DNA of 34,038 nucleotides from positions 1 through 34,038 of the forward strand of contig DAHWOF010000099.1 in assembly GCA_027335345.1 (NCBI GenBank), read 5' to 3'. Positions within the stretch are counted from its first letter, which is position 1; each line of letters begins with the position of its first letter. Position numbers and translations under genes: made by a program. The notes beneath the pieces were generated by a model. The model was not told where the DNA came from. It did no database searches and worked only from the letters and a program-made list of their open reading frames with translations. The stretch is from Granulicella sp. Lineage in GTDB: Bacteria > Acidobacteriota > Terriglobia > Terriglobales > Acidobacteriaceae. Positions 6,586 to 28,363 of the stretch are shown piece after piece.

Positions 6586-7151
6586 CTGAACGTTCTCTTG
6601 GGCGCCCTTGCTCCGGTTTCGGCGCCGCTGTGCCCTGCCAGGCTGCTATCTGGGGGCAACTCCCTACCCGAAAGCCCATCTTGCAGTCCCATGGCTGCGG
6701 AGAAGACGGTTTCGGGCTGCACCAAAGGCAGGCCCAGCGCAATCAATCCTCGTACCCGGGCGTCCCCGCAGCAGGCGCGCAGTCCCACGTTCGCTCCAAA
6801 GGAGAAGCCGGCAAACAGGACGGGCCGTCCAAAGGTTGCCGTCAGCCAGTTCAGGGCGGAGCGAACGTCATCCACCTCTCCGTATCCGTTGTCATGTCTA
6901 CCCTGGCTTAGCCCTGTGCCGCGAAAGTTGAAGCGCAATACAGGAAGTCCAAAACTGGAAAAGACCTTGGCTGCGTGGTACACCACCTTGTGATGCATCG
7001 TGCCTCCGCTGGGCGGATGGGGATGGGTCACCAGAGCCGAGTAGGGGGCGTCCGCCCGACCGGTGTTTAGAATCGCCTCCAACTTGCCAGCGGTTCCGCG
7101 CAGATCGTCTATGCTCTTGATGCTGGATTGAAACGGGGTGGAATTGCTCAC
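6336..7151 (-). CDS. Alpha/beta hydrolase, dienelactone-hydrolase/KANL3-Tex30-like
   Basis: This 271-residue protein resembles the small cytoplasmic hydrolases annotated as alpha/beta hydrolase or dienelactone hydrolase family. HPHP at 43-46 and the segment LRFNFRGTGLSQG (72-84) are typical of the group. The nucleophile is S117 in GFSFGA, a candidate acid is D207 or D209 in SGDHDAF, and the base is H238 in GADHFF. Residues 155-190 form a Gly/Ser/Pro-rich insert without obvious structure. The start is GTG at 7151; TACACT lies 6 nt upstream and no Shine-Dalgarno site is present, suggesting a leaderless transcript. The 3' end overlaps the convergent hydrolase gene by 250 nt. The 5' end is divergent from the M20 peptidase. 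The substrate is unknown. Confidence 0.8.
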   Translation of the reverse strand: MSNSTPFQSSIKSIDDLRGTAGKLEAILNTGRADAPYSALVTHPHPPSGGTMHHKVVYHAAKVFSSFGLPVLRFNFRGTGLSQGRHDNGYGEVDDVRSALNWLTATFGRPVLFAGFSFGANVGLRACCGDARVRGLIALGLPLVQPETVFSAAMGLQDGLSGRELPPDSSLAGHSGAETGARAPKRTFSYRFLPACGEVPKLFVSGDHDAFCPQGVLESTLVQAPEPKRVVWIAGADHFFASAEAGPSSPASKLDGMTGAVRAWLTETFLQ

Positions 7152-7163
7152 CTGTTCAGTGTA
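7058..7163 (-). promoter_or_regulatory. Leaderless-type -10 site before the 7151 hydrolase (hexamer 7158-7163)
   Basis: On the minus strand TACACT occupies 7163-7158, followed by six bases and the GTG at 7151-7149. That spacing puts the expected transcription start at or next to the start codon. No Shine-Dalgarno sequence lies between. The span given includes the first codons; the hexamer itself is 7158-7163. Confidence 0.5.
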
Positions 7164-7210
7164 GGGCTTGTTCTTTGGTATGGAAGCTCAGCTTGCGGAC
7201 GGCCTTCGGT

Positions 7211-7223
7211 TATCCTTGGCTTA
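7211..7223 (+). promoter_or_regulatory. Leaderless-type -10 site before the M20 peptidase
   Basis: TATCCT at 7211-7216 is followed by seven bases and the ATG at 7224. No Shine-Dalgarno sequence is present. The site is back to back with the similar hexamer of the divergent hydrolase, only 47 nt away. Confidence 0.4.
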
Positions 7224-8261
7224 ATGCCTATAGACCCCATCCAACTCACCAGGCAACTGGTCGACATTGAATCCACCACCTATCATGAGGCCTGTGTGGG
7301 CGAGTTTCTGGCCGGCTACCTGGCTCAGCAGGGCTATGTGGTCGAGCGCCAGAGTGTGCCGCAGCCCGATCCGGCACGAAATCCCGATGCCGGCTCGGGT
7401 CCGCGCTTCAACATCTATGCCTCGATGCCCGGCGTTACGCCGGATCTGGTCCTCTCCTCGCACATGGATACGGTTCCTCCGTTCCTGGGTCCCTGTCGGG
7501 AGGACGCGGAGTTTCTCTATGGCCGCGGGGCCTGTGACGCCAAAGGCATCATCGCCGCACAGATAGCCGCCGCGGAGAAGCTCATCGCTGCCGGTAGGCG
7601 GATTGCCTTGCTCTATGTGGTTGGCGAGGAGCGCGACTCTGCCGGCGCTCTAGTTGCCAACCAGACGCCCCGTGGATCGCGTTTTCTCATCAATGGAGAG
7701 CCCACCGAAAACCGTCTGGCGCTGGCTTCCAAGGGCTGCCTGCGGGTTGAACTGCGGGCACGCGGCAAGATGGCGCACTCGGCCTATCCGGAGCTGGGCG
7801 AATCGGCCATCGACAAGCTGCTGGCTGTGCTCCACGACATCCAGGCCCTGCCGCTGCCGGTCGTCGAGGGCATTGGAGACAGCACCCTGAACATCGGCGT
7901 TCTGCGCGGCGGCATCGCCCCCAACGTCATTCCAGATAACGCCGAAGCCCTCATCCTGATTCGCCTGGTCGGTCCCCCGGAAGAGATCCAGGAGGCGATC
8001 CTCCGTGCCGCCGCCGGCCGCTGCGAGGTTCACTTCACCTTGAAGCTTCCCTACATGCATATGCGCGCGGTCCCCGGCTTTGAGACTACGATTGCCAAGT
8101 TCACCACCGACATCCCTTCACTCACCGCCTGGGGCGAGCCCTTTTTGCTGGGCCCGGGCAGCATCCTGGTGGCCCACACTCCCGACGAGCATATCCGCAA
8201 ATCGGAGCTGCTGGAGTGCGTGGACCTCTACGTCAAGCTCGCCGACAGTCTGCTCGGGTGA
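7224..8261 (+). CDS. M20-family metallopeptidase/deacylase (ArgE/DapE/LysK type)
   Basis: The 345-residue protein shows the M20 dinuclear zinc motifs in order: SHMDTVPPF, GRGACDAKG, GEERDSAGA with the catalytic Glu pair, EPTEN, HSAYPELG in the dimerisation lid, and HTPDEH near the end. Enzymes of the family remove acyl groups from amino acids or succinyl-diaminopimelate, or cleave dipeptides. The short length and the sequence near GEERDSAGA fit the ArgE/DapE/LysK branch, but the substrate is not certain. I chose the ATG at 7224 because homology begins directly after it; an upstream in-frame ATG at 7128 would overlap the divergent hydrolase gene. No membrane segment is seen. The next gene downstream, plsC-like, is 105 nt away on the same strand. 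Confidence 0.87.
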   Translation: MPIDPIQLTRQLVDIESTTYHEACVGEFLAGYLAQQGYVVERQSVPQPDPARNPDAGSGPRFNIYASMPGVTPDLVLSSHMDTVPPFLGPCREDAEFLYGRGACDAKGIIAAQIAAAEKLIAAGRRIALLYVVGEERDSAGALVANQTPRGSRFLINGEPTENRLALASKGCLRVELRARGKMAHSAYPELGESAIDKLLAVLHDIQALPLPVVEGIGDSTLNIGVLRGGIAPNVIPDNAEALILIRLVGPPEEIQEAILRAAAGRCEVHFTLKLPYMHMRAVPGFETTIAKFTTDIPSLTAWGEPFLLGPGSILVAHTPDEHIRKSELLECVDLYVKLADSLLG

Positions 8262-8366
8262 ACTCTTCCCGGGCTGCTCGGCTGCTGCGCCAGAGCACGG
8301 GCGCCTCCACCCGTCTTCGCCGGAGCGGCGTGATACTCCTGCTCTCACACAGTACTTGGAATCGAC

Positions 8367-9068
8367 ATGTTCTCCGCGCTACGAATGGCTTTCGTCTTTG
8401 CTCTTTTCGGCATTCCCTCGGCCCTGCTTGGCATCCCCCTGTCGCTGCTGCGCGGCAATATACGCACCATGTATCGCTGGGCCATGTTCTCCATGCGGGC
8501 CGGCATCTGGGTTGCCGGCATTCGCGTTCGCATTCTGGGGGTGGAGAACATTCCCGCGGGCGAGGCGTGCATCTTCCTCAGCAATCACGTCTCGAACCTG
8601 GATCCGCCCATTCTCCTGCCCGCGATTCCCGGTATGTGCAGCGTCTTCCTGAAGAAGTCTTTGATGAAGGTTCCGCTGATCGGCACGGCCATGCGCATGG
8701 GCAAGTATGTTCCGGTGGCGCGCGGCCACTCGCGGATGGAGGCCGAGCAGAGCGTAGCTCTTGCGGGTGAGGCCCTGCGCAGCGGCATGCACATCTTCAT
8801 CTTCCCGGAGGGGACTCGCTCGCTGGATGGCAATCTTCTTCCTTTCAAGAAGGGCGCCTTCTTTCTTGCCGCCGATACCAACGCCCCTCTGGTCCCCATC
8901 ATCATCCAAGGCACGGCCAGGATGATGCGCAAAGGAAGCATGAAGGTCTATCCGGGGTTGGCGACGGTGCGTTTTTTGCCCGCACTTCGTCCCCAGGACT
9001 TCTCCTCCCGCGAAGAGCTGATGGAGACTGTCAGCCGGGAGATGCAGACGGCTCTCAGCCAGAGCTGA
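8367..9068 (+). CDS. 1-acyl-sn-glycerol-3-phosphate acyltransferase (PlsC-like)
   Basis: The 233-residue protein has the acyltransferase catalytic motif HX4D (H74 and D79 in NHVSNLD) and the glycerophosphate-binding motif FPEGTRS at 146-152, followed by PLVPIII. Hydrophobic segments at about 6-28 and 38-52 should anchor it in the inner membrane. PlsC converts lysophosphatidic acid to phosphatidic acid in phospholipid synthesis; a role as a related lyso-lipid acyltransferase is possible. A GGA lies 9 nt before the ATG. The 3' end converges on the SPOR gene with a 20-nt gap, and a 9-bp hairpin overlaps the stop codon. Confidence 0.9.
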   Translation: MFSALRMAFVFALFGIPSALLGIPLSLLRGNIRTMYRWAMFSMRAGIWVAGIRVRILGVENIPAGEACIFLSNHVSNLDPPILLPAIPGMCSVFLKKSLMKVPLIGTAMRMGKYVPVARGHSRMEAEQSVALAGEALRSGMHIFIFPEGTRSLDGNLLPFKKGAFFLAADTNAPLVPIIIQGTARMMRKGSMKVYPGLATVRFLPALRPQDFSSREELMETVSREMQTALSQS

Positions 9069-9072
9069 GAGC
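9051..9072. terminator. Hairpin overlapping the plsC-like stop codon
   Basis: GCTCTCAGC (9051-9059) pairs perfectly with GCTGAGAGC (9064-9072) around CAGA. The TGA of the acyltransferase (9066-9068) is inside the right arm. The symmetric hairpin sits between convergent genes and may terminate both, although there is no T-tract. Confidence 0.45.
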
Positions 9073-9088
9073 GCCAGCCCCGGATCGA

Positions 9089-9766
9089 TTACTTGATGAT
9101 CGGCTGGTACCCGTCCGCCAGCAGCCGCTGCTTGGCCGCATTGGCATCTTGGAGGCTGGGAAACGGACCCACCTGAATATGGAAGAACTTGTCCTGGGGC
9201 ACGGTATGAGCACTCACCGGATATCCCTTGGCGCGCAGCGCGCTCACCAGCAACTCAGCATCCTCCTGATGGGAGACAGCCGCTACCTGCACGATAAACT
9301 GTCCTGCGGCCACGGGCGCCTCCGGGGCGGTGACGGCGGAGGGCGACGAAGATCCCGAGGCAGAAGTTGAAGTGTTGCCCGGGGCTGTTGCCGCCGGATT
9401 TGCCGCTGTCAGCGGCCCTGCTGCCGGGCTGCCCGCGGAGCCGGCTGGGGTGGCAGACGGAGAGAGCCCTCCGGGGCCAGGTTCAGAGCCCTCCGCGCCG
9501 GCCTGATTCGCTTCCGCCGGGGACCCCGCCGCCGGCTTGAAGCTGTTGAACGGATCACTCCCCGGCTGAGACTCTCCCGAACCGGAGGAGCCAGCCACGG
9601 GAACTGTCTTGACGCTGCGGCTGCCCAGCCTGTAGCCGAAGCCAAAGAATCCTCCACACAAAAGCACCAAGGCCAGAAACATTCCCAACAAGGTTCCGGC
9701 GCCCAGCGTCAGTTCACGCTCCGGCCGGCGCAGCTTCTGATCGTCTTCATCGAGCATTCGAGTCAT
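9089..9766 (-). CDS. SPOR-domain inner-membrane protein
   Basis: This 225-residue protein has a short cytoplasmic N-terminus, one membrane segment at about 22-46, and a long Pro/Ala/Gly/Ser-rich linker at about 55-148. A SPOR domain fills the last 75 residues (from QFIVQVAAVS to the C-terminus). SPOR domains bind glycan strands lacking stem peptides and often bring proteins to the division site, so a periplasmic, septal role is likely. The GGGAG ten bases before the ATG is a reasonable ribosome site. The gene lies in a minus-strand run that also contains murA and murQ, consistent with an envelope theme. It is not FtsN by clear sequence, so I give no symbol. Confidence 0.88.
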   Translation of the reverse strand: MTRMLDEDDQKLRRPERELTLGAGTLLGMFLALVLLCGGFFGFGYRLGSRSVKTVPVAGSSGSGESQPGSDPFNSFKPAAGSPAEANQAGAEGSEPGPGGLSPSATPAGSAGSPAAGPLTAANPAATAPGNTSTSASGSSSPSAVTAPEAPVAAGQFIVQVAAVSHQEDAELLVSALRAKGYPVSAHTVPQDKFFHIQVGPFPSLQDANAAKQRLLADGYQPIIK

Positions 9767-9807
9767 TGCGAAAGGCTCCCGTCCCGCAGGGAATCGTTCA
9801 AAGGGTG

Positions 9808-9834
9808 GTTATAACAGACCCGGGGCCCAAGCAA
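9808..9834 (-). promoter_or_regulatory. Putative promoter of the SPOR gene
   Basis: On the minus strand TTGCTT (9834-9829) is followed after 15 nt by TATAAC (9813-9808). The start codon lies about 40 nt downstream. The spacer is short, so this is a tentative call. Confidence 0.35.
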
Positions 9835-9918
9835 CCTTCGCACGATGAGCTCGCAGCTCTGCTGTCGAGGACTGGCTGGCTGCGTCTGCACCCCCGGAAG
9901 CCTTGGTCCAGCCCGATC

Positions 9919-10635
9919 TTAATAGCGAAAGTAGAAGCCGGCGGTCGGCTCATAGGTGGTGGTGTGCTTGAGAATAAGGAAGTAATTTTGTCCAAAATCA
10001 GGGGCCAGGAAGAACAACTGGCGGTAACCGAAGGACAGACCGAATTTATGACTGACGTCCTTCTGAAAAGACATCGAGTAATAGTAGGTCATTCGGGCTT
10101 TTTCCTGCTGTTCTTCGCCTCCCAGGGGTGTGGGCTTGAAGGCCATCGGTCCAAATCCTGCTGAAAAGATCGGTTGCAGGCCGTCGATGGTATACGGGAT
10201 CTCTACCAGATAGCCCAAAGTGTACTCCTCCACATCGGCCTGCACCGGGTAGTCGGTCGTCGGCGCGGCGCCGGCGTTTTGGGTCGCATCGAAATTCGCG
10301 ACTGCGGGTCCTTCAAAGTTCTCGTCGTAGCGAGAGAAGCCGTAGTTGAACTGCACACCGAAGTAGGGCGTTGCAGGGAAGTCAATCGACATCACCATAC
10401 CGAAGGTGTTGGAAGGATGCTCGGTCAGGCTCAGACCTTGGTCGGGGGCGGATAGCCCTGGAAGTACATTTCCGGTGACGTTGCTGTTATAGATGCCGGC
10501 GCCCTGAAACGAGGCTTCAAACTTCCGAAGTTGTCTTTGGAGTGTGGTGGGTGGAGGCGTCGTCTGTGCGGATGCCGCCTGGGTGACGCTGGCGAACAGG
10601 AGCAGGGCAAGAAGTGAAAAGGCTTTGCGAATCAA
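9919..10635 (-). CDS. Outer-membrane beta-barrel protein of unknown function
   Basis: A 238-residue protein with a signal peptide (Arg-Lys, then a hydrophobic run ending at about VTQAASAQ). The mature part is rich in alternating aromatic and small residues with long loops. The C-terminus ends in GFYFRY, an alternating aromatic pattern with a terminal aromatic residue typical of BAM substrates. It therefore looks like a small outer-membrane barrel of the OmpA/opacity type, but I do not recognise a specific family. The start is a TTG at 10635 with GGAG ten bases upstream. It follows the NfeD-like gene after 36 nt and may be co-transcribed. Confidence 0.65.
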   Translation of the reverse strand: MIRKAFSLLALLLFASVTQAASAQTTPPPTTLQRQLRKFEASFQGAGIYNSNVTGNVLPGLSAPDQGLSLTEHPSNTFGMVMSIDFPATPYFGVQFNYGFSRYDENFEGPAVANFDATQNAGAAPTTDYPVQADVEEYTLGYLVEIPYTIDGLQPIFSAGFGPMAFKPTPLGGEEQQEKARMTYYYSMSFQKDVSHKFGLSFGYRQLFFLAPDFGQNYFLILKHTTTYEPTAGFYFRY

Positions 10636-10671
10636 GTCGTGAAGGCTCCGGGCGCGAGATAGCGCTCCACT

Positions 10672-11106
10672 TTAGTCTAAACCCTTGTTGGTTCGGGCGC
10701 GGTGCGCGATTCGGGTAAGAAGGGAGGTTCCCGCGCCGAGCGCCAGGCCGCATCCTGTGGCGGTGGCCGTGTGGACCGTCTCGTCCGCTGGAGCCAGCAC
10801 CAGGTGCAGGAATCCAAAGACGATCGCCAGTGTTGCCACCAACAGCACCGTGGCCTGGAGGGGCCGCAGCAGATTCAACAGCAACAGTGCGATCGCCACC
10901 AACACCAAACCGAGGGCTGCCGGGTTCAACTCCCGTTGGCCCAGCGCAGCCGACCCGAACAGCACGGCCAGAACACCTGCGGCCAAGCTCCAGATCCATC
11001 CCGGGCGGTTCAACTCCAGATAGATCAGAAGCACTCCCAAGGTCACCAGCAGCAGAGCCACATCGGGAGAAAGGTGGTGTATCCGATCTAGCCAGAGATG
11101 AGCCAT
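10672..11106 (-). CDS. Small multi-pass membrane protein, NfeD-like
   Basis: The 144-residue protein is almost entirely hydrophobic, with three or four membrane segments. The motif LELNRPGWIWSLAAGVLAVLF (about 30-50) resembles the membrane part of NfeD proteins, where LELxxPGFG precedes the second helix. The soluble OB-fold that ends full NfeD proteins is absent; the last 20 residues are short and basic. NfeD proteins act with stomatin-like partners or membrane proteases, but no partner is encoded nearby. A GGAAG site precedes the ATG, and the gene is 19 nt downstream of the TPR gene, so the two are probably one operon. Confidence 0.6.
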   Translation of the reverse strand: MAHLWLDRIHHLSPDVALLLVTLGVLLIYLELNRPGWIWSLAAGVLAVLFGSAALGQRELNPAALGLVLVAIALLLLNLLRPLQATVLLVATLAIVFGFLHLVLAPADETVHTATATGCGLALGAGTSLLTRIAHRARTNKGLD

Positions 11107-11125
11107 AGTGTGCTTCCGCAGACTC

Positions 11126-12889
11126 CTACTGCTGTACTGGGGGAACCGGTTGCCCGCGCTGCTGAAGCACCAGCTTCAAGGCAATCGCCTGGGAGTCCGT
11201 CGGGTTCAGTCGCAGCGCCTGGTCGATGTCCGCCGCGCAGGCCGCCCACTGCTGTTGCGCCAGATCCAGCCGCGCCAGCACCAAAAGCGCCACCGAGTTC
11301 GGCTTCAAAATCAGGGATGTCCGCGCCTCATCGCGGGCCCCGGCGTCATCCCCGCTGGCCTCGCGCAGTTGCGCCATTCCGGCATGGGCATCGGCTGAGT
11401 TCGGATTAGCCTGCACCGCCAACTGAAACTGCTTCTCCGCCTCCGGAAGCAACCCCTCGGAGAGATATTCGCGGCCGGCCCGGGTGTACTCCACTGCTTG
11501 CCTGTCGGCAGGCAATAGCGCCAGACGAACGGCGCGCATCTGGTCTAGCTGAAACTCCTCCTGCCGGAAGCTTGTCTCCGAGTACGTTCTCTCAATCCTC
11601 TCCAGCGGGCTGAAGCCGTTATCGATCGCCCCGGTACTTGTTGAAGACTCCTGCCCAGACTGCTGCCCAGACTGCTGCCCGGACTTCTGTCCAGACTCCG
11701 CAGTCTCCCCAATATCCTCTGTAAGCCGCGTTCCGGGCGCCACTTCTTTCAACTCCGCCGCGAGTTCCTGGGCCTCCTGGTCGTCCGGCTTCAGGCTCAG
11801 CGCCGCCTGTACTTGGCTCTCGGCGTTGGCGGTATCGCCGCGCCGGAAGAGCGCGATGGCCAGGTTGTAGTGGTAGTTCTCATCGGAGGGGTCCAGGCTG
11901 GATGCCTTCTCGAACAGGGCTACGCCGTCCTTGCCCTGCCGGCTGATTGCAACAGCCTCGTTGTTCACCACTTCGGGCAGTGGCAGCCGGCTGGCTACAA
12001 AAGCGAACGCTTCCTGTGCTCTGGCATAGTTCGCGGAGTTGAACTCAGCGAGCCCCAGATAGAAGTTGGCCTCCAGAGCGATTCGTTTGGATGGGGGAAC
12101 CTTGGCCAGCGTGGCGGCTGCTGCCTCGAAGTCGCGTTGCGCGTACTGTTCTTTGCCCAACTCCAGCAAAGCTGCCGCGTAGTTTGGCTCCAGCGCAACC
12201 GCATCCTCAAGACGCTTCAGCTTCTCCGCATCCGTGGAGGCGTTGATCCCGCGGATATAGTCTTCAAACGCCGGCAGCGGCACTGCGCCCGGAGCCGCCA
12301 GAAAAGTTTGCTCCGAGACGAGCAACTGGGGATCCAGACGCTCCGCAACCTTCCACGCAATCGCGTTCTCCGCATCAAACAGACGCATCAGCGCGGATGA
12401 GTCATCCACGGGCGGCCAGAGCTGCAGTTGATCGATGGACAACACGCTGGCCTGAATGGTGATAGATCTGTTGGCTGGGCCCTTGGCGGTCTCCCCTGCC
12501 GGGGTGCTCCCGGAGTCCGTCCGCACATCGTAGCTGCCGAGGATCACATAGTCCGCATCCAGTTGCTGGGCAATGCGAATCGTGGTGGCGCGCGTCGGTC
12601 GAAAGTCAGCAGGCAGCCCCAAATGCTCATAGGCAAAGACGCGGTCATCGTGAGAGATTGTCAGGAAGCCGGCCGAGTTCAGCCGTTTGTTCAGCGTATC
12701 CGGAATCGAGTCGCCAATCCAGTTCAGGGATTCGTCGCCGGAGTGGTTGTCGAAGGGAAGCACCAGAACCACGCGGCCGCTGGGAGCCGCGGGCGTCTGT
12801 GCGGGTGTCTGCGCCACCGTTGCTGCGCTCGATGCCACGATCGCCAGAAGAGCGGGGAGTAGGACGCAGGCTTTCGGCAGAGACAGCAT
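11126..12889 (-). CDS. Exported TPR protein with TolB/FlgO-like N-terminal domain
   Basis: From the ATG at 12889 the product is 587 residues with a signal peptide (MLSLPKACVLLPALLAIVAS, cleavage near ATVAQ). Residues about 38-150 resemble the FlgO/TolB-like domain that begins RVVLVLPFDNHSG and predicts a nucleotide- or partner-binding sandwich. At least six degenerate tetratricopeptide repeats follow, with ANPNSADAHAGMAQL a clear one. Residues about 398-413 are a Ser-Gly-Gln repeat encoded by four 12-bp units. TPR arrays bind proteins, so it probably scaffolds a periplasmic complex. I rejected an in-frame upstream ATG at 12913 because it precedes both the signal peptide and the TATAAT 7 nt before 12889. 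Confidence 0.8.
   Translation of the reverse strand: MLSLPKACVLLPALLAIVASSAATVAQTPAQTPAAPSGRVVLVLPFDNHSGDESLNWIGDSIPDTLNKRLNSAGFLTISHDDRVFAYEHLGLPADFRPTRATTIRIAQQLDADYVILGSYDVRTDSGSTPAGETAKGPANRSITIQASVLSIDQLQLWPPVDDSSALMRLFDAENAIAWKVAERLDPQLLVSEQTFLAAPGAVPLPAFEDYIRGINASTDAEKLKRLEDAVALEPNYAAALLELGKEQYAQRDFEAAAATLAKVPPSKRIALEANFYLGLAEFNSANYARAQEAFAFVASRLPLPEVVNNEAVAISRQGKDGVALFEKASSLDPSDENYHYNLAIALFRRGDTANAESQVQAALSLKPDDQEAQELAAELKEVAPGTRLTEDIGETAESGQKSGQQSGQQSGQESSTSTGAIDNGFSPLERIERTYSETSFRQEEFQLDQMRAVRLALLPADRQAVEYTRAGREYLSEGLLPEAEKQFQLAVQANPNSADAHAGMAQLREASGDDAGARDEARTSLILKPNSVALLVLARLDLAQQQWAACAADIDQALRLNPTDSQAIALKLVLQQRGQPVPPVQQ
11651..11698 (-). repeat. Four tandem 12-bp units encoding a Ser-Gly-Gln repeat
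   Basis: Two identical units CTGCCCAGACTG (11651-11662, 11663-11674) are followed by two near-copies (11675-11686, 11687-11698). They encode four residues each in the linker between two TPR blocks. In-frame slippage would change the linker length without breaking the frame. Confidence 0.85.
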
Positions 12890-12902
12890 CCCCTCGATTA
12901 TA
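12890..12902 (-). promoter_or_regulatory. Perfect TATAAT 7 nt before the TPR start codon
   Basis: On the minus strand TATAAT occupies 12902-12897, then CGAGGGG, then the ATG at 12889. The purine run touches the start codon, so it is badly placed for a Shine-Dalgarno site. The predicted transcript would begin at the start codon or one base before it. Confidence 0.5.
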
Positions 12903-12974
12903 GGCGGTCGCACTCAGTCCCACAGGGCCGATCGGCTGTAGCACGGCGTCCTCGCGCATCCGGTTCCTGGGATC

Positions 12975-14255
12975 TCATCGTCTGGCAAAGACCTCGCCCA
13001 TGCGGCGAATCTGGGCTCCGGCGCCGCGCAGCTTCTCTTCCAGGTGTTCATATCCGCGGTCGATGTGATAGACGCGGTCCAGGATGCTCTCTCCGTCGGC
13101 CACTAGCGCGGCCAGCACCAGAGCCGCCGATGCGCGCAGGTCTGAGCACATCACCGCCGCCGACTGCAGCCTGGCTCCTCCGCGCACTGTGGCCGTCCGG
13201 CCTTGCACGGTGATGTTCGCGCCCATCCGGTTCAACTCGCCCACATGCATGAACCGGTTCTCGAAGATGTTCTCCGTCACAAGGGAGGTTCCGTTGGCCT
13301 GGGTCGCCAGCGCCATGAACTGCGCCTGCATGTCGGTGGGGAAGCCTGGATACTCCTCGGTGGTGATATCGCTCGCCAGCAGCCGGTCGCCGGCGCGGGC
13401 CCGTACACTCTCCTTGCCCACCTCCAGTTTCACGCCGCACTGTTCCAGCTTTCCGATCACCGCTCCCAGATGCGCGGGGTTGCAGCCTTCCACATGCAGG
13501 TCGCCCCCTGTGATGGCTCCTGCGATCAAATAGGTTCCAGCCTCGATGCGGTCCGGGTTGATCCTGTGCCGGGCGCCGTGCAACCTGGCTACGCCTCGCA
13601 CACGAATCGTCGAGGTCCCCGCGCCCTCGATTTTGGCGCCCATGGCGCGGAGCAGAGCCGCCAGGTCCACCACCTCCGGTTCCCGCGCACAGTTCTCAAA
13701 CAGGGACTCCCCATCGGCCAGCGCTGCGGCCATCAGCAAGTCTTCGGTGCCTGTCACGGTAATCTTGTCAAAGACGATATGGGCGCCCTTCAAGCGGTTT
13801 GCCCGCGCCTCCAAATAGCCATGCTCCTGGAGAATGGTGGCGCCCATCGCCTCCAGGCCCTTGATGTGCAGATCGATGGGCCGGCCCCCGATGGCGCAGC
13901 CCCCCGGCATCGCTACTCGCGCCATGCCGGTGCGCGCAATCAGGGGTCCCAGCACCAGCGAGCTGGCGCGCATGGTCTTCACGATCTCATACTTCGCAAC
14001 CGGATCGCTGAGCACGGCGCAGCGGATCGAGGTACGATGCTGAGCGCGGCCATATCCCAGCTCTACCTCAGCGCCCATGGACTCCAGCAGTCTGCGCTCG
14101 GTCTCAATATCCCGTACCTGCGGAACGTTCTCAAGGATCACTTCGTCTTCGGTCAGAATCGCCGCGGCCATGCAGGGCAGGGCAGAGTTCTTTGCCCCTG
14201 AGATCTTGATGCTGCCCTGCAGCGGGTTGCCCCCGCGAATCACAAACTTGTCCAT
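12975..14255 (-). CDS. murA: UDP-N-acetylglucosamine 1-carboxyvinyltransferase
   Basis: MurA catalyses the first committed step of peptidoglycan synthesis, moving enolpyruvate from phosphoenolpyruvate to UDP-GlcNAc in the cytoplasm. The 426-residue length is standard. KISGAKNS carries K22, and the active-site Cys is C120 in AMPGGCAIGGRPIDLH. ASAALVLAALVADGES near the C-terminus is also typical. The retained Cys is the residue that fosfomycin alkylates, so the enzyme is expected to be of the sensitive type. TACACT lies 6 nt before the ATG with no clear Shine-Dalgarno site. MurQ is encoded upstream on the same strand after a 335-nt gap, so the two are unlikely to be one operon. Confidence 0.97.
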   Translation of the reverse strand: MDKFVIRGGNPLQGSIKISGAKNSALPCMAAAILTEDEVILENVPQVRDIETERRLLESMGAEVELGYGRAQHRTSIRCAVLSDPVAKYEIVKTMRASSLVLGPLIARTGMARVAMPGGCAIGGRPIDLHIKGLEAMGATILQEHGYLEARANRLKGAHIVFDKITVTGTEDLLMAAALADGESLFENCAREPEVVDLAALLRAMGAKIEGAGTSTIRVRGVARLHGARHRINPDRIEAGTYLIAGAITGGDLHVEGCNPAHLGAVIGKLEQCGVKLEVGKESVRARAGDRLLASDITTEEYPGFPTDMQAQFMALATQANGTSLVTENIFENRFMHVGELNRMGANITVQGRTATVRGGARLQSAAVMCSDLRASAALVLAALVADGESILDRVYHIDRGYEHLEEKLRGAGAQIRRMGEVFARR

Positions 14256-14267
14256 GGATCCAGTGTA
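14256..14267 (-). promoter_or_regulatory. Leaderless-type -10 site before murA
   Basis: On the minus strand TACACT occupies 14267-14262, followed by GGATCC and the ATG at 14255. The six-base gap puts the transcription start at the start codon. GGAT is a poor and too-close Shine-Dalgarno candidate. Confidence 0.5.
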
Positions 14268-14484
14268 GATGTGCGGTTTACCGGAAAGCTGCGGCGCCGC
14301 TGAGGAAATCGCTCCTCACGAGGCTGGTAGGCCTGTTGTTGTTGTCAGTCCTGTCCGGCCGATGGTCTGAACACGCAGATGCAGAGAGGAGTCTTGCTGG
14401 ACAGAATCCACCGGTATGCTGGTAACCCTGCCTTTACTTCGTAAGGGTGTCGTTCTGCGTGGCCTGCCGGGATGGGAGCGCCTC

Positions 14485-14590: not shown

Positions 14591-15556
14591 TCAGAGTTCC
14601 AGCCGTGAATCCTCGATGGCCAGACGCACATTGCCGTCCGACTGTTGCAGCCGCCGCACGGCTTCCATCTTGTCGACGTTGGCTTTCAACATAACCACGG
14701 CGATGGGGATCGATTTTCCCGCCGACTTGATGGTCCGGATCGCCGTTTCGCGGTCGATCCCGCAGACTTTCATCAGCACCCGGATGCCGCGCTCCACCAG
14801 CTTGGCGTTCTTCATGTGAACGTTCACCATCAGGTTGTCGTACACATAGCCCAGCCGGGTCATCGCTCCGGTGGTAATCATGTTCAGAATCATCTTCTGC
14901 GCGGTTGAGGCCTTCATGCGCGTCGACCCGGAGACGATCTCGGGCCCGACCTCTGCACAGATGGTCATGTCCGCCACTTTGGAGAGGTTTGAGTTCGCAT
15001 TGCAGGTGATCGCGGCGGTCTTGGCGCCACAGGAACGGGCATACTCGGTGGCGCCCACAACATAAGGAGTTCGCCCCGAAGCCGACACGCCGATGACGAT
15101 GTCCTTGCGCGTAGGCCGGCGGCGGGCGATATCGCGCTGCCCCAGCTCCGGCTGGTCCTCATTGACATCAGAGGCGCTGGCCAGCGCCTTTGGCCCGCCC
15201 GCCATGATGTACTGCACCTGTTGCGGAGCCGTGGAGAAGGCGGGGGGGCATTCGGAGGCGTCCAATGCGCAGATTCTTCCTGAAGAGCCGGCGCCCACAT
15301 AGATCAGGCGTCCGCCGTCACGCAGGGAGCGCGCGACCGTATCGATCACCTCGGCAATTTCGGGCAGGGCCTTTTTGACGGCCGCTGCAACCTTTGCATC
15401 TTCGTGATTGATGATTCGGGCAATCTCGATTGCGGATTTTGTATCCAGCCCTTCGGATGCCTCATTTTGCCGTTCGGTGGAGAGGTTATCGAGATCGCTC
15501 CCCGTCCCAGCCAAGGTCTCGTCGCTCGGCGTTGAAGACATGGTCATTGTAGCCAT
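14591..15556 (-). CDS. murQ: N-acetylmuramic acid 6-phosphate etherase
   Basis: MurQ cleaves the lactyl ether of MurNAc-6-phosphate to give GlcNAc-6-phosphate and lactate during peptidoglycan recycling in the cytoplasm. The SIS domain shows YVGAGSSGRICALDASECPP, with the catalytic Glu in DASECPP, and later SASGRTPYVVGA and STRMKASTAQK. I chose the ATG at 15556 (321 residues) because GGAG lies 5 nt upstream and a TACACT hexamer lies 15 nt upstream. The ATG at 15583 would lie before that promoter. The usual partners (AnmK, NagZ, MurNAc transport) are not in the window. Confidence 0.95.
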   Translation of the reverse strand: MATMTMSSTPSDETLAGTGSDLDNLSTERQNEASEGLDTKSAIEIARIINHEDAKVAAAVKKALPEIAEVIDTVARSLRDGGRLIYVGAGSSGRICALDASECPPAFSTAPQQVQYIMAGGPKALASASDVNEDQPELGQRDIARRRPTRKDIVIGVSASGRTPYVVGATEYARSCGAKTAAITCNANSNLSKVADMTICAEVGPEIVSGSTRMKASTAQKMILNMITTGAMTRLGYVYDNLMVNVHMKNAKLVERGIRVLMKVCGIDRETAIRTIKSAGKSIPIAVVMLKANVDKMEAVRRLQQSDGNVRLAIEDSRLEL

Positions 15557-15570
15557 AGGATCTCCATCAT

Positions 15571-15577
15571 TAGTGTA
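15571..15577 (-). promoter_or_regulatory. Putative -10 hexamer of murQ
   Basis: CTACACT on the minus strand lies 15 nt before the chosen murQ ATG and leaves room for the GGAG ribosome site. It is the same heptamer seen before murA and the 7151 hydrolase, but here with a short leader. Confidence 0.4.
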
Positions 15578-15617
15578 GCGCATCTAGTTCGGATACGGTT
15601 CCGTTCGCCGTTTTCAT

Positions 15618-18829: not shown

Positions 18830-20041
18830 TTACTTGTCGGTCAGGGCAGCCACTCCGGGAAGGACTTTGCCCTCCAGGAACTCCAGGCTTGCTCCCCCGC
18901 CCGTGGAGATGTGGGTGATCTTGTCCGCAACGCCGGAGTGATGCAGTGCCGCTACAGAGTCTCCGCCGCCCACGATGGTGATCGCGTCATTGTTGCGGGC
19001 CAGGGCGTTGGCGATCGCGTTGGTGCCCTTGGCGAAGGCGGGAAGCTCGGCTACTCCCATGGGTCCGTTCCATACCACCGTAGCCGCCTCGGCAATCTCT
19101 TCGGAGAAGAGCTTCACCGTAGCCGGTCCGATGTCCAGGGCCATCCAATCTTCCGGGAAGGGTCCATCACCGCTGAACACCTGGGTCCGCGCGTCCGCGG
19201 CAAACTTGTCCGCAAGCACATGGTCCACCGGCAGCAGGAACTTCACGCCCCGCTCTGCAGCCTTGTCCATGGCCGCCTTGGCCACATTCAGCTTGTCCAT
19301 CTCCACCAAAGACTTGCCTGTGGTCTGCCCATTGGCGTTCAAGAAGGTGTAGGTCATGCCTCCGCCGATCAGCAGGGAATCCACCCGGTCCAGAAGAGCA
19401 TTGATCACTTCAATCTTGTCCGATACTTTGGCTCCGCCGATAATCGCGACAAAGGGACGGAACGGCTCGCTGACCGCTTTACCCAGGTAGTTCAGCTCCT
19501 TCTCCATGAGCATGCCGGCGGCCGATTGCGCTACAAAATGGGTGATTCCCTCGGTGGAGGCGTGGGCTCGATGGGCTGCCCCAAAGGCATCGTTCACATA
19601 CAGGTCGCACAACGCCGCAAGCTTTCTGGCAAACTCCGGATCGTTGGCCTCTTCACCGGAGTGAAAGCGCAGGTTTTCCAGCAGCAGGGTCTGCCCCGGC
19701 TCAAGATTGTTGGACATCTCCTCAGCCACAGGGCCCACGCAATCGGGAGCGAACGCCACATTCTCGTCGGCGTCCAGTACGCCATCCAGCAGCATCCGCA
19801 GCCGCGCCACTACCGGGCGCAGGCTCATCGAATCCACCTTCTTGCCCTTGGGTCTTCCCAAGTGTGCCGCCAGAATGACCTTTGCTTTGCGCCGCAGAGC
19901 ATACTCTATCGTCGGAATCGTCTCGCGAATACGGGTGTCATCCGTTATCGCGCCCTCTTTGGAGAGAGGCACATTGAAGTCCACACGAATCAAGACACGC
20001 TTGGCGGTAAGATCGAGATCGCGAATTGATAGCTTTGCCAT
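18830..20041 (-). CDS. pgk: Phosphoglycerate kinase
   Basis: Pgk transfers a phosphate from 1,3-bisphosphoglycerate to ADP. The 403-residue protein starts with the typical [11 protein letters not shown] and has AAHLGRPKG in the N-domain. The nucleotide-binding end is [13 protein letters not shown] and [15 protein letters not shown]. Transcription is likely from a promoter with TATTCT only 7 nt before the ATG, and no Shine-Dalgarno site lies between. The tpiA gene is downstream on the same strand after 223 nt and has its own ribosome site; co-transcription is possible. Gene order on this strand is gapA, ridA, pgk, tpiA. Confidence 0.97.
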
Positions 20042-20054
20042 TGGTAGAAGAATA
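20042..20054 (-). promoter_or_regulatory. Leaderless-type -10 site before pgk
   Basis: On the minus strand TATTCT occupies 20054-20049, then TCTACCA, then the ATG at 20041. No purine-rich ribosome site is present. A TTGAA-N3-TTCAA palindrome (20072-20084) lies about 20 nt upstream, near the expected -35 region, and could be an operator. Confidence 0.45.
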
Positions 20055-20071
20055 ACTGAACTTGACCGGAG

Positions 20072-20804: not shown

Positions 20805-21015
20805 CTCTGCCTTCCTCTCTGGTTAGCCATGTCAGGCGCCGCATCGTCTCTCCCAAGGGCAAGAGGCTCCACGCCGCCGCATCGTTGCTTCTCTCCAGGG
20901 TACGGCGCTGCCATGCAAGATGGCGTCCTGCCTAATCTTCCACTCCTGCCAGGCTGGTTCTTGAGGGAGTGCGCGGTCATGGTTCGTCGCAGAACAGACA
21001 AGCGAGCTTTGCCAC

Positions 21016-21070
21016 AAAGAGAGAAGGGAACGGAGACCGCGGGGTCGCCGTTCCCTCCCTATCTCTTTTT
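21016..21070 (-). terminator. Intrinsic terminator after gapA
   Basis: AGGGAACGG (21025-21033) pairs with CCGTTCCCT (21048-21056), and an outer stem AAAGAGA/TCTCTTT (21016-21022, 21062-21068) extends it across a small asymmetric bulge. Read on the minus strand, the structure follows the gapA stop directly, has an A-rich left side and ends in TCTCTTT. The symmetry allows termination from the other side as well. Confidence 0.75.
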
Positions 21071-21078
21071 GCGAGTCT

Positions 21079-22083: not shown

Positions 22084-22118
22084 AATCCCTCATTTCTTCA
22101 GAGTTCTTTCCATTGATC

Positions 22119-22147
22119 AAACTAACAAAGCCCACCCGCAATCGCAA
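22119..22147 (-). promoter_or_regulatory. Putative gapA promoter
   Basis: On the minus strand TTGCGA (22147-22142) and TAGTTT (22124-22119) are 17 nt apart. The predicted leader is about 30 nt and includes the GAGGG ribosome site. Confidence 0.4.
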
Positions 22148-22149
22148 AC

Positions 22150-22173
22150 TGGAGGGCGGCCTGGAGGGCGGCC
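22150..22173. repeat. Two perfect tandem copies of TGGAGGGCGGCC
   Basis: The 12-bp unit is repeated at 22150-22161 and 22162-22173, just upstream of the gapA promoter. GGCCTGG (22158-22164) can pair with CCAGGCC (22172-22178). It may be a binding site or slippage product. Confidence 0.7.
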
Positions 22174-22253
22174 AGGCCCTGACCCGCGCGGAGAGGTTGC
22201 ATCGGTTTGCACTGTTTTTGCGGCAGGGGGGCGGCTTGTGTTACAAACCAGCT

Positions 22254-23129
22254 ATGCGCGAATGGTTGCGCGATATGCTCATGAGAAGACGTTCCAAGCG
22301 TGGTCCGAACGAGTCGGAGTCCACCGGCAAGATTGGTCAGGAACTTCCTGCAAACCAACCTGCACCCCTCCAGCCTTCCTATCCAGCGCCCCTGCCTTCG
22401 GCGGTCGTGCAGACCGAGCCGGCGGAGCCCACCCCGACGCCTGAGCCTGCTCCGTCACCGCAGGCTCCATCGTCTGCGGCAGAGCCCTCCGAGCCGCGTC
22501 TGATTCACGAACTTCAGCCTGACTCCCTGGCCACTCCGCCCGCCAGTCCAGAGGCGGTTCCTTCCAGGAGCCCCCGCGGCTACGTCGTGCTCACCATTGG
22601 CCTCCCGGGTTCGGGCAAGACCACCTGGTACAAGCGTCGCGGCGTCACTCCTCTCTCCAGCGACCTGCTGCGCAATCTTCTCTTCGATGACATCACCGAG
22701 CAGCGTTATCAGGGCCTGGTCTTCAGCACGTTGCGCAGCCTGCTTCGGGCCCGCCTGATCGCCAAGATGCCATGGAACTACGTGGATGCTACCAATCTCA
22801 GTCCTCATGAGCGTCGCCAGTGGATCAAGATGGCGAAGTCCTTCGGCTATGAGGTGCATGCGGTCTTCTTTGATGTTCCCTTGGCCGTGTGCCTGGAGCG
22901 CAACTCGAAGCGCGATCGCCAGGTCACCGACGATGTCATGCACAAGATGGCCGAGCGACTCCGTCCACCGGCCTTCAAAGAGGGTTTCGACAAGATCACT
23001 GTGGTTCGAGTTAAAGGCGCCTCTCCGGCCACCAAAGCGATCGCCGAACAGGGAGGCGCGGCGCCTGCGCCTGAGTCCATTCCTGGGCCAGAGTCCGATG
23101 CAGCGTCAAGTCTCGGAGCTGAGGGCTGA
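22254..23129 (+). CDS. P-loop kinase, polynucleotide-kinase-like, with Pro-rich N-terminal region
   Basis: From the ATG at 22254 the 291-residue protein begins with a basic segment (RRRSKRG). A Pro/Glu/Ala-rich region follows at about 30-108, then an AAA-type P-loop kinase domain. Walker A is GLPGSGKTTW (116-125). LSSDLLRNLLFDD, VDATNLSPHERR, FFDVPLAVCLERN and MAERLRPPAFKEGFDKI follow in the order seen in T4-Pnkp/Cli-type kinases. The family phosphorylates 5'-OH nucleic acid ends or small molecules, and the substrate here is unknown. A GTP/ATP-driven RNA-repair role is possible, but no ligase or phosphatase is nearby. The in-frame ATG at 22113 is rejected because its first 47 codons lack family resemblance. 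No clear ribosome site precedes 22254. Confidence 0.75.
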   Translation: MREWLRDMLMRRRSKRGPNESESTGKIGQELPANQPAPLQPSYPAPLPSAVVQTEPAEPTPTPEPAPSPQAPSSAAEPSEPRLIHELQPDSLATPPASPEAVPSRSPRGYVVLTIGLPGSGKTTWYKRRGVTPLSSDLLRNLLFDDITEQRYQGLVFSTLRSLLRARLIAKMPWNYVDATNLSPHERRQWIKMAKSFGYEVHAVFFDVPLAVCLERNSKRDRQVTDDVMHKMAERLRPPAFKEGFDKITVVRVKGASPATKAIAEQGGAAPAPESIPGPESDAASSLGAEG

Positions 23130-23161
23130 GAGCTTGTTGAAAGGCAACGTTTCGGCCTTCG

Positions 23162-23398
23162 ATGAGGATGTCGACTTCCCCTATTCGGTTAAAGTCAGAA
23201 GAATCAACGAGGCTGGAACTGAGCAGGAGTCACCTTGCCGGCGCCACGGCCGCCCGCCGATGGATCCGTGCCATTGGCGCCATCGGCAACTGCGTGAAGA
23301 ACAATCTGATCGACGAAGACCCAGATACCGGTAGCGAGGCGGCTGGGCTTTGCATTCCGCTTCATCTGGTTCATGATGGAGTGGAGCGAGGTCCCTGA
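23162..23398 (+). CDS. Doubtful small ORF coupled to the DinB-like gene
   Basis: A 78-codon frame fills most of the 268-nt gap between the kinase and DinB-like genes. Its middle (about codons 30-60) has GC-rich third positions like real genes here, and its TGA overlaps the ATG of the next gene (TGATG at 23396-23400). I recognise no family, and the first half has poor codon use and no ribosome site. It is listed at low confidence because no overlapping gene explains it. Confidence 0.2.
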   Translation: MRMSTSPIRLKSEESTRLELSRSHLAGATAARRWIRAIGAIGNCVKNNLIDEDPDTGSEAAGLCIPLHLVHDGVERGP

Positions 23399-23931
23399 TG
23401 CAAAAATCCGCCCTCCCCGAGCCTTGGCTGCGTGGCACCCACAACGACATCGATCCCATCCGTCGCGGCATCCTCCATGCCTTGGATCTCTGCGGCGAAG
23501 ATGCCTCCCACTGGTGCAAGACTTTGCGCGACGACCAGCTCCTTGATCGTCCCGCGGGTCTTCCGCCCATCGTCTTTCATCTGCGCCACATCGTCCGCTC
23601 GCTGGACCGCCTGCTCACGTACGCGGAAGGCAAACAGCTCAGCGCGGCTCAACTGGATGCTCTCAAGAGCGAACTCGATACGAGGGGTCTGCACCCCAGC
23701 TCCATCTCCGAGGTCTTCGACGAGTTTCGCACCGGGCTGAGGAGAGCGGCCGACCGCATCCGCTCCATCTCTCCGGATCGCTTCCATGAATCGGTTCACA
23801 TCGGGAAGAAGCAATTGCCTGCTACGGTTGGCGGTCTTCTGGTCCACTGCGCAGACCACAGTCAGCGGCACATCGGCCAACTCATCACCACGGTCAAGGT
23901 TCTGCAGTTTACGGTGCCAGACAGAGAATAG
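23398..23931 (+). CDS. DinB-like four-helix protein
   Basis: The protein of about 177 residues looks like the DinB/YfiT-like family of four-helix metal-binding proteins. HLRHIVRSLDRLLTYAEG near residue 61 and HCADHSQRHIGQ near residue 150 supply the His residues that typically bind a divalent metal. Characterised relatives include thiol transferases (for example bacillithiol- and mycothiol-dependent enzymes) and DNA-damage-induced proteins of unknown role. The substrate cannot be read here. GAGGT six bases before the ATG is a good ribosome site. The 3' side has a strong hairpin shared with the convergent nitroreductase gene. Confidence 0.78.
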   Translation: MQKSALPEPWLRGTHNDIDPIRRGILHALDLCGEDASHWCKTLRDDQLLDRPAGLPPIVFHLRHIVRSLDRLLTYAEGKQLSAAQLDALKSELDTRGLHPSSISEVFDEFRTGLRRAADRIRSISPDRFHESVHIGKKQLPATVGGLLVHCADHSQRHIGQLITTVKVLQFTVPDRE

Positions 23932-23941
23932 AGGCGGAAGA

Positions 23942-23977
23942 GCATGCAGGTTGGAGCGACCGCTCCAATCTGCATGC
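23942..23977. terminator. 16-bp hairpin between the DinB-like and nitroreductase genes
   Basis: GCATGCAG-G-TTGGAGC (23942-23957) pairs with GCTCCAA-T-CTGCATGC (23962-23977) over 16 positions, with one G-U pair, around GACC. It begins 10 nt after the DinB-like stop codon and sits between convergent genes. There is no T-tract on the plus side and only a mixed pyrimidine run on the minus side. A bidirectional terminator is the best guess; a palindromic repeat element is the alternative. Confidence 0.6.
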
Positions 23978-24076
23978 CCCATGGAGAGACTTCTCCTCGT
24001 CTCTTGAAGCAGCCTGGAGTGCCGAGGCAGGCTCCTGGTGCGCTTGCTGCAAAGCCGCTCTACAGGGGAGTTTGCT

Positions 24077-24682
24077 TCAAACCTCTGCCGGCCGCTCCCA
24101 CTCGGTGAACACAAACTCCCGCAGCGGCTTGCGTGTTCTCGCCGCCTTCTCCATCTCGCGGTAGATCATGGGCAGCGCATCCGGATCGCCCGGATATCCC
24201 AGCGCCCAGGCGGCGCCGACCTCGAACTCCTCGGGGATTGCAAAGTTTTTGCGCGCTCTTTCTTTGTCCACGCCGCCCATGCCGTGCGTTTGCAACCCTA
24301 GCGCCGTTGCTTGCAGGCTCATGTTCGCCGATGCGGCTCCGGTATCGTGCAGGCAGAGCGGGTTGGGATAACCGTTGGCGGAGAAGACCGTCTTGCTTGC
24401 CGACAGGATCAGCACCGGCGCGGTCTTGGCCCACACCTGGTTGAACTCTACCAGGGCATCCAGGATCTTCTCGTAGGTCGTCTCGCCCCTTCGGCCCACC
24501 AGAAATCGCCAGGGCTGCTCGTTGTAGCTCGATGCGGCCCAACCGGCGGCGGTAAAGATCTTGGTCAGATCGGCGTCCGTGACGGGCTGATCGGAAAAGG
24601 ACCGCGGACTCCAGCGCCGGCGGATCACTTCGAGGACTCCATCGTCCACCTGCGCAGACTTCACATCTTCATCGATCGTCAT
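24077..24682 (-). CDS. Nitroreductase-family flavoprotein
   Basis: The 201-residue protein fits the FMN-dependent nitroreductase family. RRRWSPRSFSDQPV is the usual N-terminal FMN-binding region, AAGWAASSYNEQPWRF is the second FMN motif, and GMGGVDKERARKNFAIP lies near the C-terminus. Such enzymes reduce nitro compounds, quinones or flavins using NAD(P)H; the physiological substrate is unknown. GGAGAGAAC before the ATG is a good ribosome site. The ribA gene ends 106 nt upstream on the same strand and makes a flavin precursor. That link is suggestive only. Confidence 0.88.
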   Translation of the reverse strand: MTIDEDVKSAQVDDGVLEVIRRRWSPRSFSDQPVTDADLTKIFTAAGWAASSYNEQPWRFLVGRRGETTYEKILDALVEFNQVWAKTAPVLILSASKTVFSANGYPNPLCLHDTGAASANMSLQATALGLQTHGMGGVDKERARKNFAIPEEFEVGAAWALGYPGDPDALPMIYREMEKAARTRKPLREFVFTEWERPAEV

Positions 24683-24788
24683 GTTCTCTCCTGCCTTTGG
24701 ATTGGACGCGCCACATGCGCCATGGTTGCGTGGTGACGTCCTTTCTAGACCTCTGGCTGCGCATCGGGAGGCATTTGGCAGCCTTCGA

Positions 24789-25406
24789 TTATCCGATCAG
24801 GTGCCCCATCTTGTTGCGCTTGGTCTCCAGGTAGCGCTTGAAGGTTGGCTCCGCAGGAATAATGGCGGGAACTCGTTCCACCACTTGAACTCCAGCATCC
24901 TTCAGCGCTTGTACCTTCTCCGGATTGTTGGTAATCAGCCGAACCGCGGGGATGTGCAGGGCTTTGAGAACCTCAGCCGGCAGTTCAAACTCGCGGTAGT
25001 CGGCGCGAAAGCCCAGCTTCAAGTTGGCCTCGATCGTGTCCAGTCCCTTGTCCTGCAACTCGTAGGCGCGCAACTTGGCCATCAGCCCAATGCCGCGGCC
25101 TTCCTGCTCCTCATACAGCAGCACTCCCGCACCCTCCTTGGCGATCAGTCCCAACGCCATATGGAGCTGATCGTGACAGTCGCAGCGCAGGGAGTGAAAG
25201 ACGTCGCCGGTCAGACACTGGGAGTGGATTCTCACCAGTGGAGGCGCAGCCGAGAGATCCCCCATCGTTAATGCCACCAGACCATCCACATGCTTGAGAG
25301 AAGCGCTGCCGGGCTCGGCCACGCCTTCAAACCCCAGAATGCGAAAGTGTCCCCATCGGGTGGGGAAGTCGGCGCTGGCAACTCTGCGTACCTTGCTATA
25401 CGGCAT
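24789..25406 (-). CDS. ribA: GTP cyclohydrolase II
   Basis: RibA opens GTP to 2,5-diamino-6-ribosylamino-pyrimidinone phosphate, the first step of riboflavin synthesis. The 205-residue length matches the stand-alone enzyme, and no RibB domain is fused. The zinc ligands are C64, C75 and C77 in HSQCLTGDVFHSLRCDCHDQ, and EEQEGRGIGL follows. RLITNNPEKV is a conserved late motif. The start ATG aligns with the usual N-terminus. It lies only 5 nt from a perfect TATAAT, with no room for a ribosome site, so the message is probably leaderless. I see no FMN riboswitch upstream. It is divergent from the LytS-type kinase. Confidence 0.96.
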   Translation of the reverse strand: MPYSKVRRVASADFPTRWGHFRILGFEGVAEPGSASLKHVDGLVALTMGDLSAAPPLVRIHSQCLTGDVFHSLRCDCHDQLHMALGLIAKEGAGVLLYEEQEGRGIGLMAKLRAYELQDKGLDTIEANLKLGFRADYREFELPAEVLKALHIPAVRLITNNPEKVQALKDAGVQVVERVPAIIPAEPTFKRYLETKRNKMGHLIG

Positions 25407-25417
25407 ATACCATTATA
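25407..25417 (-). promoter_or_regulatory. Perfect TATAAT 5 nt before the ribA start codon
   Basis: On the minus strand TATAAT occupies 25417-25412, then GGTAT, then the ATG at 25406. The usual distance from a -10 box to +1 is about six bases, so transcription should begin at the start codon. No alternative Met lies before residue 48, and the -35 region is weak. Confidence 0.6.
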
Positions 25418-25496
25418 GATTCCCGAAATTTGCTCTGGATGCATAGCATCGGGCTCCTCCGCAAGCCGCCTTCAGCCGGGAGCCGGCTTCGGCGAG

Positions 25497-25509
25497 TAGA
25501 GTTAAGGAT
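25497..25509 (+). promoter_or_regulatory. Leaderless-type -10 site before the LytS-type kinase
   Basis: TAGAGT (25497-25502) is followed by seven bases and the GTG at 25510. An AAGGA also lies there but ends only one base before the GTG, too close for normal pairing. The site faces the ribA hexamer across the 103-nt divergent region. Confidence 0.35.

Positions 25510-28363
<2,854 letters not shown>

Follow-up and report, generated by a model that had tools for sequence, protein, structure and literature searches.

Seven genes of an acidobacterial genome carry a hexamer of the form TANNNT, resembling the -10 element of a bacterial promoter, 5 to 7 nt before the start codon. They lie in the window, by which we mean the whole stretch of 34,038 nucleotides that was analysed (contig DAHWOF010000099.1 of Granulicella sp., one of the 233 contigs of the draft genome GCA_027335345.1, 3,653,742 bases). 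The best reading, to which we assign a probability of about 0.9, is that these boxes are promoters lacking a -35 element, in which the -10 box abuts the open reading frame (ORF) and would give rise to a leaderless mRNA. The original prediction, made from the letters of the window, listed the seven hexamers with their start codons and gaps (the number of nucleotides between box and start codon), all of which are exact on re-reading of the sequence:

7158..7163, minus strand: -10-like box TACACT, 6 nt before GTG 7151 of an alpha/beta-hydrolase gene (6336-7151; Pfam)
7211..7216, plus strand: -10-like box TATCCT, 7 nt before ATG 7224 of an M20 peptidase gene (7224-8261; Pfam)
12897..12902, minus strand: -10-like box TATAAT, 7 nt before ATG 12889 of a TPR-protein gene (11126-12889)
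14262..14267, minus strand: -10-like box TACACT, 6 nt before ATG 14255 of murA (12975-14255; Pfam EPSP_synthase)
20049..20054, minus strand: -10-like box TATTCT, 7 nt before ATG 20041 of pgk (18830-20041; Pfam PGK)
25412..25417, minus strand: -10-like box TATAAT, 5 nt before ATG 25406 of the GTP cyclohydrolase II gene ribA (24789-25406; Pfam)
25497..25502, plus strand: -10-like box TAGAGT, 7 nt before GTG 25510 of a LytS-type histidine kinase gene (25510-26937; Pfam His_kinase)

The Pfam matches are consistent with the gene names of all seven. The EPSP_synthase family contains both MurA and AroA, which a Pfam match cannot tell apart, and the name murA is that of the original prediction. At the TPR gene the aligned relatives have ATG at position 12889, which favours this start over GTG 12913.

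Excess of TANNNT before start codons

Gene starts were called in 60 stretches of the genome and in the window (841,114 bases) from coding potential and start-codon type, with no upstream signal. TANNNT stands at a gap of 5-8 nt before 44 of the 415 starts of a first, smaller sample, and at a gap of 5-9 nt before 64 of the 605 starts of the full sample, where the shuffle mean is 14.5. The window was excluded from the main test to keep it independent of the data that had raised the idea; 59 of the remaining 578 starts have the box at a gap of 5-9 nt, compared to 13.6 in dinucleotide shuffles (standard deviation 3.5, maximum 24, n = 500). The gap of 6 alone accounts for 30 of the 605 starts, as opposed to 3.0 per gap position further upstream, and this peak places the first T 12 bp before the start codon. 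A genome-wide peak 5 to 8 nt before starts, which the original prediction had named as its sequence test, is present in the 841 kb with and without the window. The share of box-led starts (10.6%) contains chance matches (about 2.4%) and is diluted by miscalled starts, and the true share is not fixed by the counts; about one gene in ten of the sampled genome appears to be transcribed from its start codon.

Internal in-frame ATG and GTG codons are preceded by the pattern in 134 of 9757 cases (1.4%). None of six rearranged A/T triplet patterns rises before starts as TANNNT does (65 vs 14.8 per five gaps); ANNNTA (34 vs 14.6) and TNNNAT (43 vs 23.2) show milder rises, and the other four show little or none. 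The same pipeline finds the box before 15 of 100 starts on plasmid 1 of Deinococcus deserti, with a peak at a gap of 6 (2.9 in shuffles), and before 36 of 320 starts in G007, another genome of the genus studied here (11.9 in shuffles). There is no excess in Escherichia coli K-12 (2 of 77 starts vs 6.3 in shuffles).

For the window itself the original prediction had claimed an excess over a chance expectation of about one box, and the measured background (0.48% per gap position, from gaps 15-39 of the 578 other starts of the same genome) gives 0.42 among 29 genes at gaps of 5-7. The probability of at least seven boxes among 29 genes is 1.6e-7 at these gaps and 1.4e-5 with gaps of 4-9 allowed, values that depend on the post hoc choice of starts and on the count of 29 genes. 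The blind, signal-free caller places 27 starts in the window, five of which have TANNNT at a gap of 5-9 (M20, murA, pgk, ribA and LytS); in its first run the hydrolase gene was not called and the TPR start was placed at 12817.

Shine-Dalgarno sites, start codons and gene context

Shine-Dalgarno (SD) sites are scarce where the box is present. Outside the window, an SD tetramer occupies the usual place at 4 of 59 box-led starts versus 229 of 519 others (Fisher P = 2e-9); the overall SD share in the genome sample is 40%. The earlier statement that none of the seven genes has a well-spaced SD site is true of all seven, and the TPR and LytS genes carry an SD-like purine tract that lies too near the start. 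The box precedes 25 of 164 divergent starts and 5 of 87 starts that follow a gene on the same strand by 25 nt or less, the class at which SD sites are commonest (60%). That the box is most frequent at divergent starts and least frequent at close same-strand starts is as expected for a promoter.

Start codons differ as well: of 58 box-led genes with a gap of 5-8, 48 begin with ATG, 10 with GTG and none with TTG, whereas TTG opens 62 of 543 other genes (P = 0.002). In the boxes of these 58 genes position 4 favours A (48%) and position 5 favours C (53%). TACACT is the commonest form in the genome sample (6/64); in G007 TACACT, TATCCT and TACAAT are equally frequent, at 4/36 each.

Conservation of the box in relatives

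Relatives of the murA, ribA, M20, pgk and LytS genes were collected by searches of the genus, which returned 28 genomes; those of the hydrolase and TPR genes come only from loci that were fetched for other genes and happened to include them. A row was counted if its upstream sequence was distinct, its aligned codon was a start codon and its protein was at least 62% identical; the own genome was included. TANNNT at a gap of 5-9 is kept in 148 of 149 such rows across the seven genes (hydrolase 8/8, M20 21/21, TPR 10/10, murA 30/30, pgk 28/28, ribA 25/26, LytS 26/26). In the sole miss, ribA of locus L147, TATAAT stands 25 nt before the aligned ATG. The GTG start of the LytS gene is shared by all 26 of its rows. 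Left out were matches below 60% identity or starting after query residue 4, identical rows, rows with too little upstream DNA, eight rows with a non-start codon at the aligned place (five of them M20), and three rows at 60-62% identity, of which two TPR rows (L118, L130) have the box and one pgk row (L037) has an SD site and no box.

These rows share descent, many of them coming from close kin, and do not amount to 149 independent tests. However, the 30 bases before the box have diverged (mean column conservation 0.46-0.59), and common descent alone therefore does not explain the retention of the box. At murA the third position of the box varies freely (TACACT, TAAACT, TAGACT), while T1, A2 and T6 are kept. 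Conservation extends to a few extra letters immediately ahead of the box, such as the GAATC that touches the ribA box. A further motif, TTTCC[TA], occurs 13-16 nt before the box in 18 of 30 distinct murA upstream sequences.

The SD-led neighbours of these genes behave differently. In rows of at least 65% identity, which include one eno row from another phylum and five gapA rows from another family, the box is found in none of 62 (tpiA 0/28, eno 0/26, gapA 0/8), and an SD site is found in 28/28, 23/26 and 8/8 rows, respectively. Neighbouring genes of one pathway are thus led in two ways, pgk by the box and tpiA, gapA and eno by SD sites. SD sites had been claimed for these three genes and for four others. 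Those before gpmI (ATG 28524), ridA and the nitroreductase gene are visible in the window (the last two names are taken from the original prediction); that of murQ was not confirmed, being present in 2 of 9 rows.

Outside the genus the picture changes. Two murA genes from other genera of the family are without the box (L241 has none; L242 has an SD tetramer), and the pgk gene of L037, which belongs to a different family within the order, has an SD tetramer and lacks the box, which indicates that the box mode is not fixed beyond the genus. Further afield, in a sample of 29 other genomes of the phylum, the box precedes 5 of 22 start-aligned murA genes (P = 0.002 against the local background). 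Four families are represented among these five genes; two of the genes belong to a single genus, and in one, L255, an SD tetramer accompanies the box. The phylum-wide view comprises this one gene and one genome sample (G062, 400 kb), and we make no claim for the phylum as a whole. Selection might maintain leaderless expression gene by gene, with murA, pgk, ribA, M20 and LytS leaderless in nearly every usable relative within the genus and tpiA, gapA and eno SD-led, a possibility that we regard as doubtful. If it were true, the murA box outside the genus would hint that leaderless translation has a function at this cell-wall gene, as opposed to mere promoter drift.

Interpretation and alternative explanations

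We propose that the hexamers act as -10 elements of the sigma-70 type set directly against the reading frame. RNA polymerase would recognise TANNNT (the box here being mostly TAnACT-like or TATCCT) unaided by any discernible -35 element, the transcript would open with the start codon's first base or no more than about 2 nt away from it, and the leaderless mRNA would be translated from its 5'-terminal AUG or GUG without SD pairing. Some 10% of the sampled genes would follow this mode, SD sites being commonest close behind a gene on the same strand. The step from box to leaderless mRNA we infer by analogy with Deinococcus and mycobacteria, and the sigma factor, the transcription start and the mode of ribosome binding are predicted from the DNA sequence. 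The original prediction is confirmed in its observation and supported in its interpretation. Its suggestion that genes as essential as murA and pgk use the box agrees with the retention of both boxes in relatives, and transcription of the two would probably begin at the start codon.

Several observations weigh against this interpretation. The boxes have no common -35 element: a TTGACA-like hexamer at a spacing of 15-19 accompanies 7 of 64 boxes, compared to 8.4 in shuffles. The same search yields 4 of 36 in G007 (4.9 in shuffles) and 1 of 15 in D. deserti (1.9 in shuffles), none of 45 positions upstream of the box exceeds z = 3.0 in our sample and that of G007, and no -35 block is shared in the alignments of the seven genes; these samples are small, and weak or divergent -35 elements would escape detection in them. 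Since D. deserti, which belongs to a genus with experimentally studied leaderless genes, is likewise without a visible -35 element, its absence does not speak against a promoter.

SD-like purine tracts at or right beside the start codon also weigh against it. GAGGGG stands directly against the ATG of the TPR gene (12890-12896), and AAGGA stands 1 nt before the GTG of the LytS gene (25498-25509); a purine tetramer at a gap of 0-2 recurs in 7 of 10 and 18 of 26 rows of their relatives, respectively. Such tracts lie nearer the start than SD sites usually do. They are also found in murA (7/30) and ribA (3/26) rows, with none in pgk, M20 or hydrolase rows. In the genome sample they occur at 8 of 64 box-led starts, where shuffles of the last nine bases give 4.1, and at 39 of 541 other starts. 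The tracts beside the LytS and TPR starts, which recur among relatives, might have a role. An SD tetramer at the usual place is present in 4 of 29 hydrolase and M20 rows. Among the other genomes, the peak in G007 is broader, spanning gaps of 6-13, the excess in G062, which belongs to the same phylum and has 68% G+C, is not clear (7 of 302 starts vs 3.3 in shuffles, maximum 8), and there is none on plasmid pACIX901 of Granulicella tundricola (2 of 57 vs 2.1, using 100 of 476 kb).

An alternative explanation is that the -10 boxes are real but accompanied by promoters further upstream, such that most of the mRNA has a leader and the leaderless form is a minor one. Secondary promoters are common in bacteria. 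However, a well-spaced SD site is present in just 4 of the 149 rows, which would leave a leadered message mostly without an obvious ribosome site, and the poor conservation of the DNA before the box argues against promoters there; we consider this explanation improbable. A second alternative is that the box is a translation signal, an A/U-rich binding site for the ribosome or for protein S1 within a short leader, and not a promoter. The constant distance to the start codon, the absence of a shared -35 element and the scarcity of SD sites would all suit such a site. This explanation is less probable still, as the kept letters T1, A2 and T6 are those of the -10 pattern, with the third letter free at murA, and in D. 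radiodurans the identical box acts at the identical place as a -10 element (PMC12340547); moreover, the box is rarest close behind a same-strand gene (5/87), where a translation signal would be needed.

The remaining explanations hardly survive. That A/T-rich DNA before starts yields TANNNT by chance, and that fitting starts were picked, is suggested by the choice of the seven by eye, by the box at only 5 of the 27 blind window starts and by the two other A/T patterns that rise, but it fails against 59 boxes where shuffles give 13.6, against the sharp peak at a gap of 6 and against 148 of 149 relatives' rows. Derivation of the TA from stop codons (TAA, TAG) of an upstream gene, which the first two letters of TANNNT might suggest, is equally remote, with the highest rate at divergent starts (25/164) and the lowest behind close same-strand genes. 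Coding-phase artefacts were examined too and, like chance, A/T-richness and overlap with stop codons, rejected.

Gene-start calling in these genomes needs a leaderless model. A longest-ORF rule would place the M20 start at TTG 7128 instead of 7224 and the TPR start at GTG 12913 instead of 12889. The box-led set, moreover, includes genes of core metabolism (murA, pgk).

Other features of the window

An eighth box may be present:

4753..4758, minus strand: possible eighth case, TATTTT, 4 nt before GTG 4748 of a PDZ/GAF/PAS histidine kinase gene (1746-4748; Pfam)

It was absent from the original list, its gap is 1 nt short of the main range, and it is known from the window alone. The hydrolase and M20 genes (7151-7224) and the ribA and LytS genes (25406-25510) form divergent pairs, each separated by a short intergenic stretch (72 and 103 bp, respectively) with a leaderless-type box at either side. 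In 19 of 27 distinct ribA upstream sequences (window positions 25406-25440 and relatives) TGAATC occurs 20-21 nt before the box, a spacing unlike that of a -35 element, and in this divergent region it may be the site of a regulator. The alpha/beta-hydrolase ORFs 5479-6585 (plus strand) and 6336-7151 (minus strand) converge and overlap by 250 bp, and an earlier end or a frameshift in one of them is possible. The murQ gene (14591-15583, minus strand) has neither the box nor an SD site at the usual place before ATG 15583; relatives differ here, and the true start may be elsewhere.

Comparison with known systems

The product of pgk shares 95-97% identity with its counterparts in three Acidobacteria metagenome-assembled genomes (MAGs), 84% with that of Granulicella paludicola and 78% with that of an Acidobacteriaceae MAG, as opposed to 46-56% for loci of other phyla among the matches listed; the organism therefore belongs to the Acidobacteriaceae (Acidobacteriota) and not to Deinococcus-Thermus or Actinobacteria. 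Among the matches listed for pgk on plasmids none is acidobacterial. The original prediction had compared the boxes with leaderless genes of those two other phyla. The comparison is apt; however, the nearest precedent for an acidobacterium, the Acidobacteria surveyed by Zheng et al. 2011 (PMC3160421, Table 2), went unnamed.

In D. radiodurans the usual form of the motif is TACACT, some 6-7 bp ahead of the ORF; it is reported to act as a -10 element in reporter tests, and a classical -35 element is mostly lacking (PMC12340547). The boxes described here share with those of Deinococcus-Thermus the commonest form TACACT, the gap of about 6-7 bp, the general lack of a classical -35 element and the conservation among homologs of a genus. 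In Mycobacterium tuberculosis TANNNT without a conserved -35 element precedes 73% of the mapped primary starts, leadered ones included (PMC3898074), and the -10 motif and the lack of a conserved -35 element are likewise shared. Both systems differ in belonging to other phyla and in their experimental footing, with about 30% of ORFs involved and reporter tests in the former and mapped transcription starts in the latter, whereas our evidence is that of sequence comparison.

Zheng et al. 2011 (PMC3160421) classed the upstream signals of 953 bacterial genomes and reported leaderless genes in three of three Acidobacteria genomes, with a mean of 13.3% (9.7-19.4). The genes studied here resemble their TA-led genes in the position of the first T (about 12 bp upstream of the start codon), the lack of an SD site and the excess over dinucleotide shuffles, and the share is similar, 9.7-19.4% there and 10.6% of 605 starts here, chance matches included. 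In Actinobacteria and Streptococcaceae, changes of mode between orthologs track phylogenetic distance according to the same study, which agrees with retention inside the genus and change outside it here. A 2024 survey gives an SD share of 45% for Acidobacteriia (PMC10783764), near the 40% of our sample. Among the matches listed in the open-licence literature, we found no transcription-start mapping for Acidobacteria, and, judged by titles and the beginnings of abstracts, Zheng et al. 2011 was the only study on leaderless genes in Acidobacteria besides the SD survey. Leaderless genes in acidobacteria are thus already reported and not new. Our analysis adds evidence from the same genome and the same genus to the existing prediction for Acidobacteria. 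In comparison to the sections of Zheng et al. 2011 drawn on here, which concern other genomes, it treats conservation gene by gene and the -35 region of Acidobacteria, and the details that it contributes are the near-complete retention of the box gene by gene within one genus, the contrast between pgk and its SD-led neighbours tpiA, gapA and eno, and the lack of a visible -35 element.

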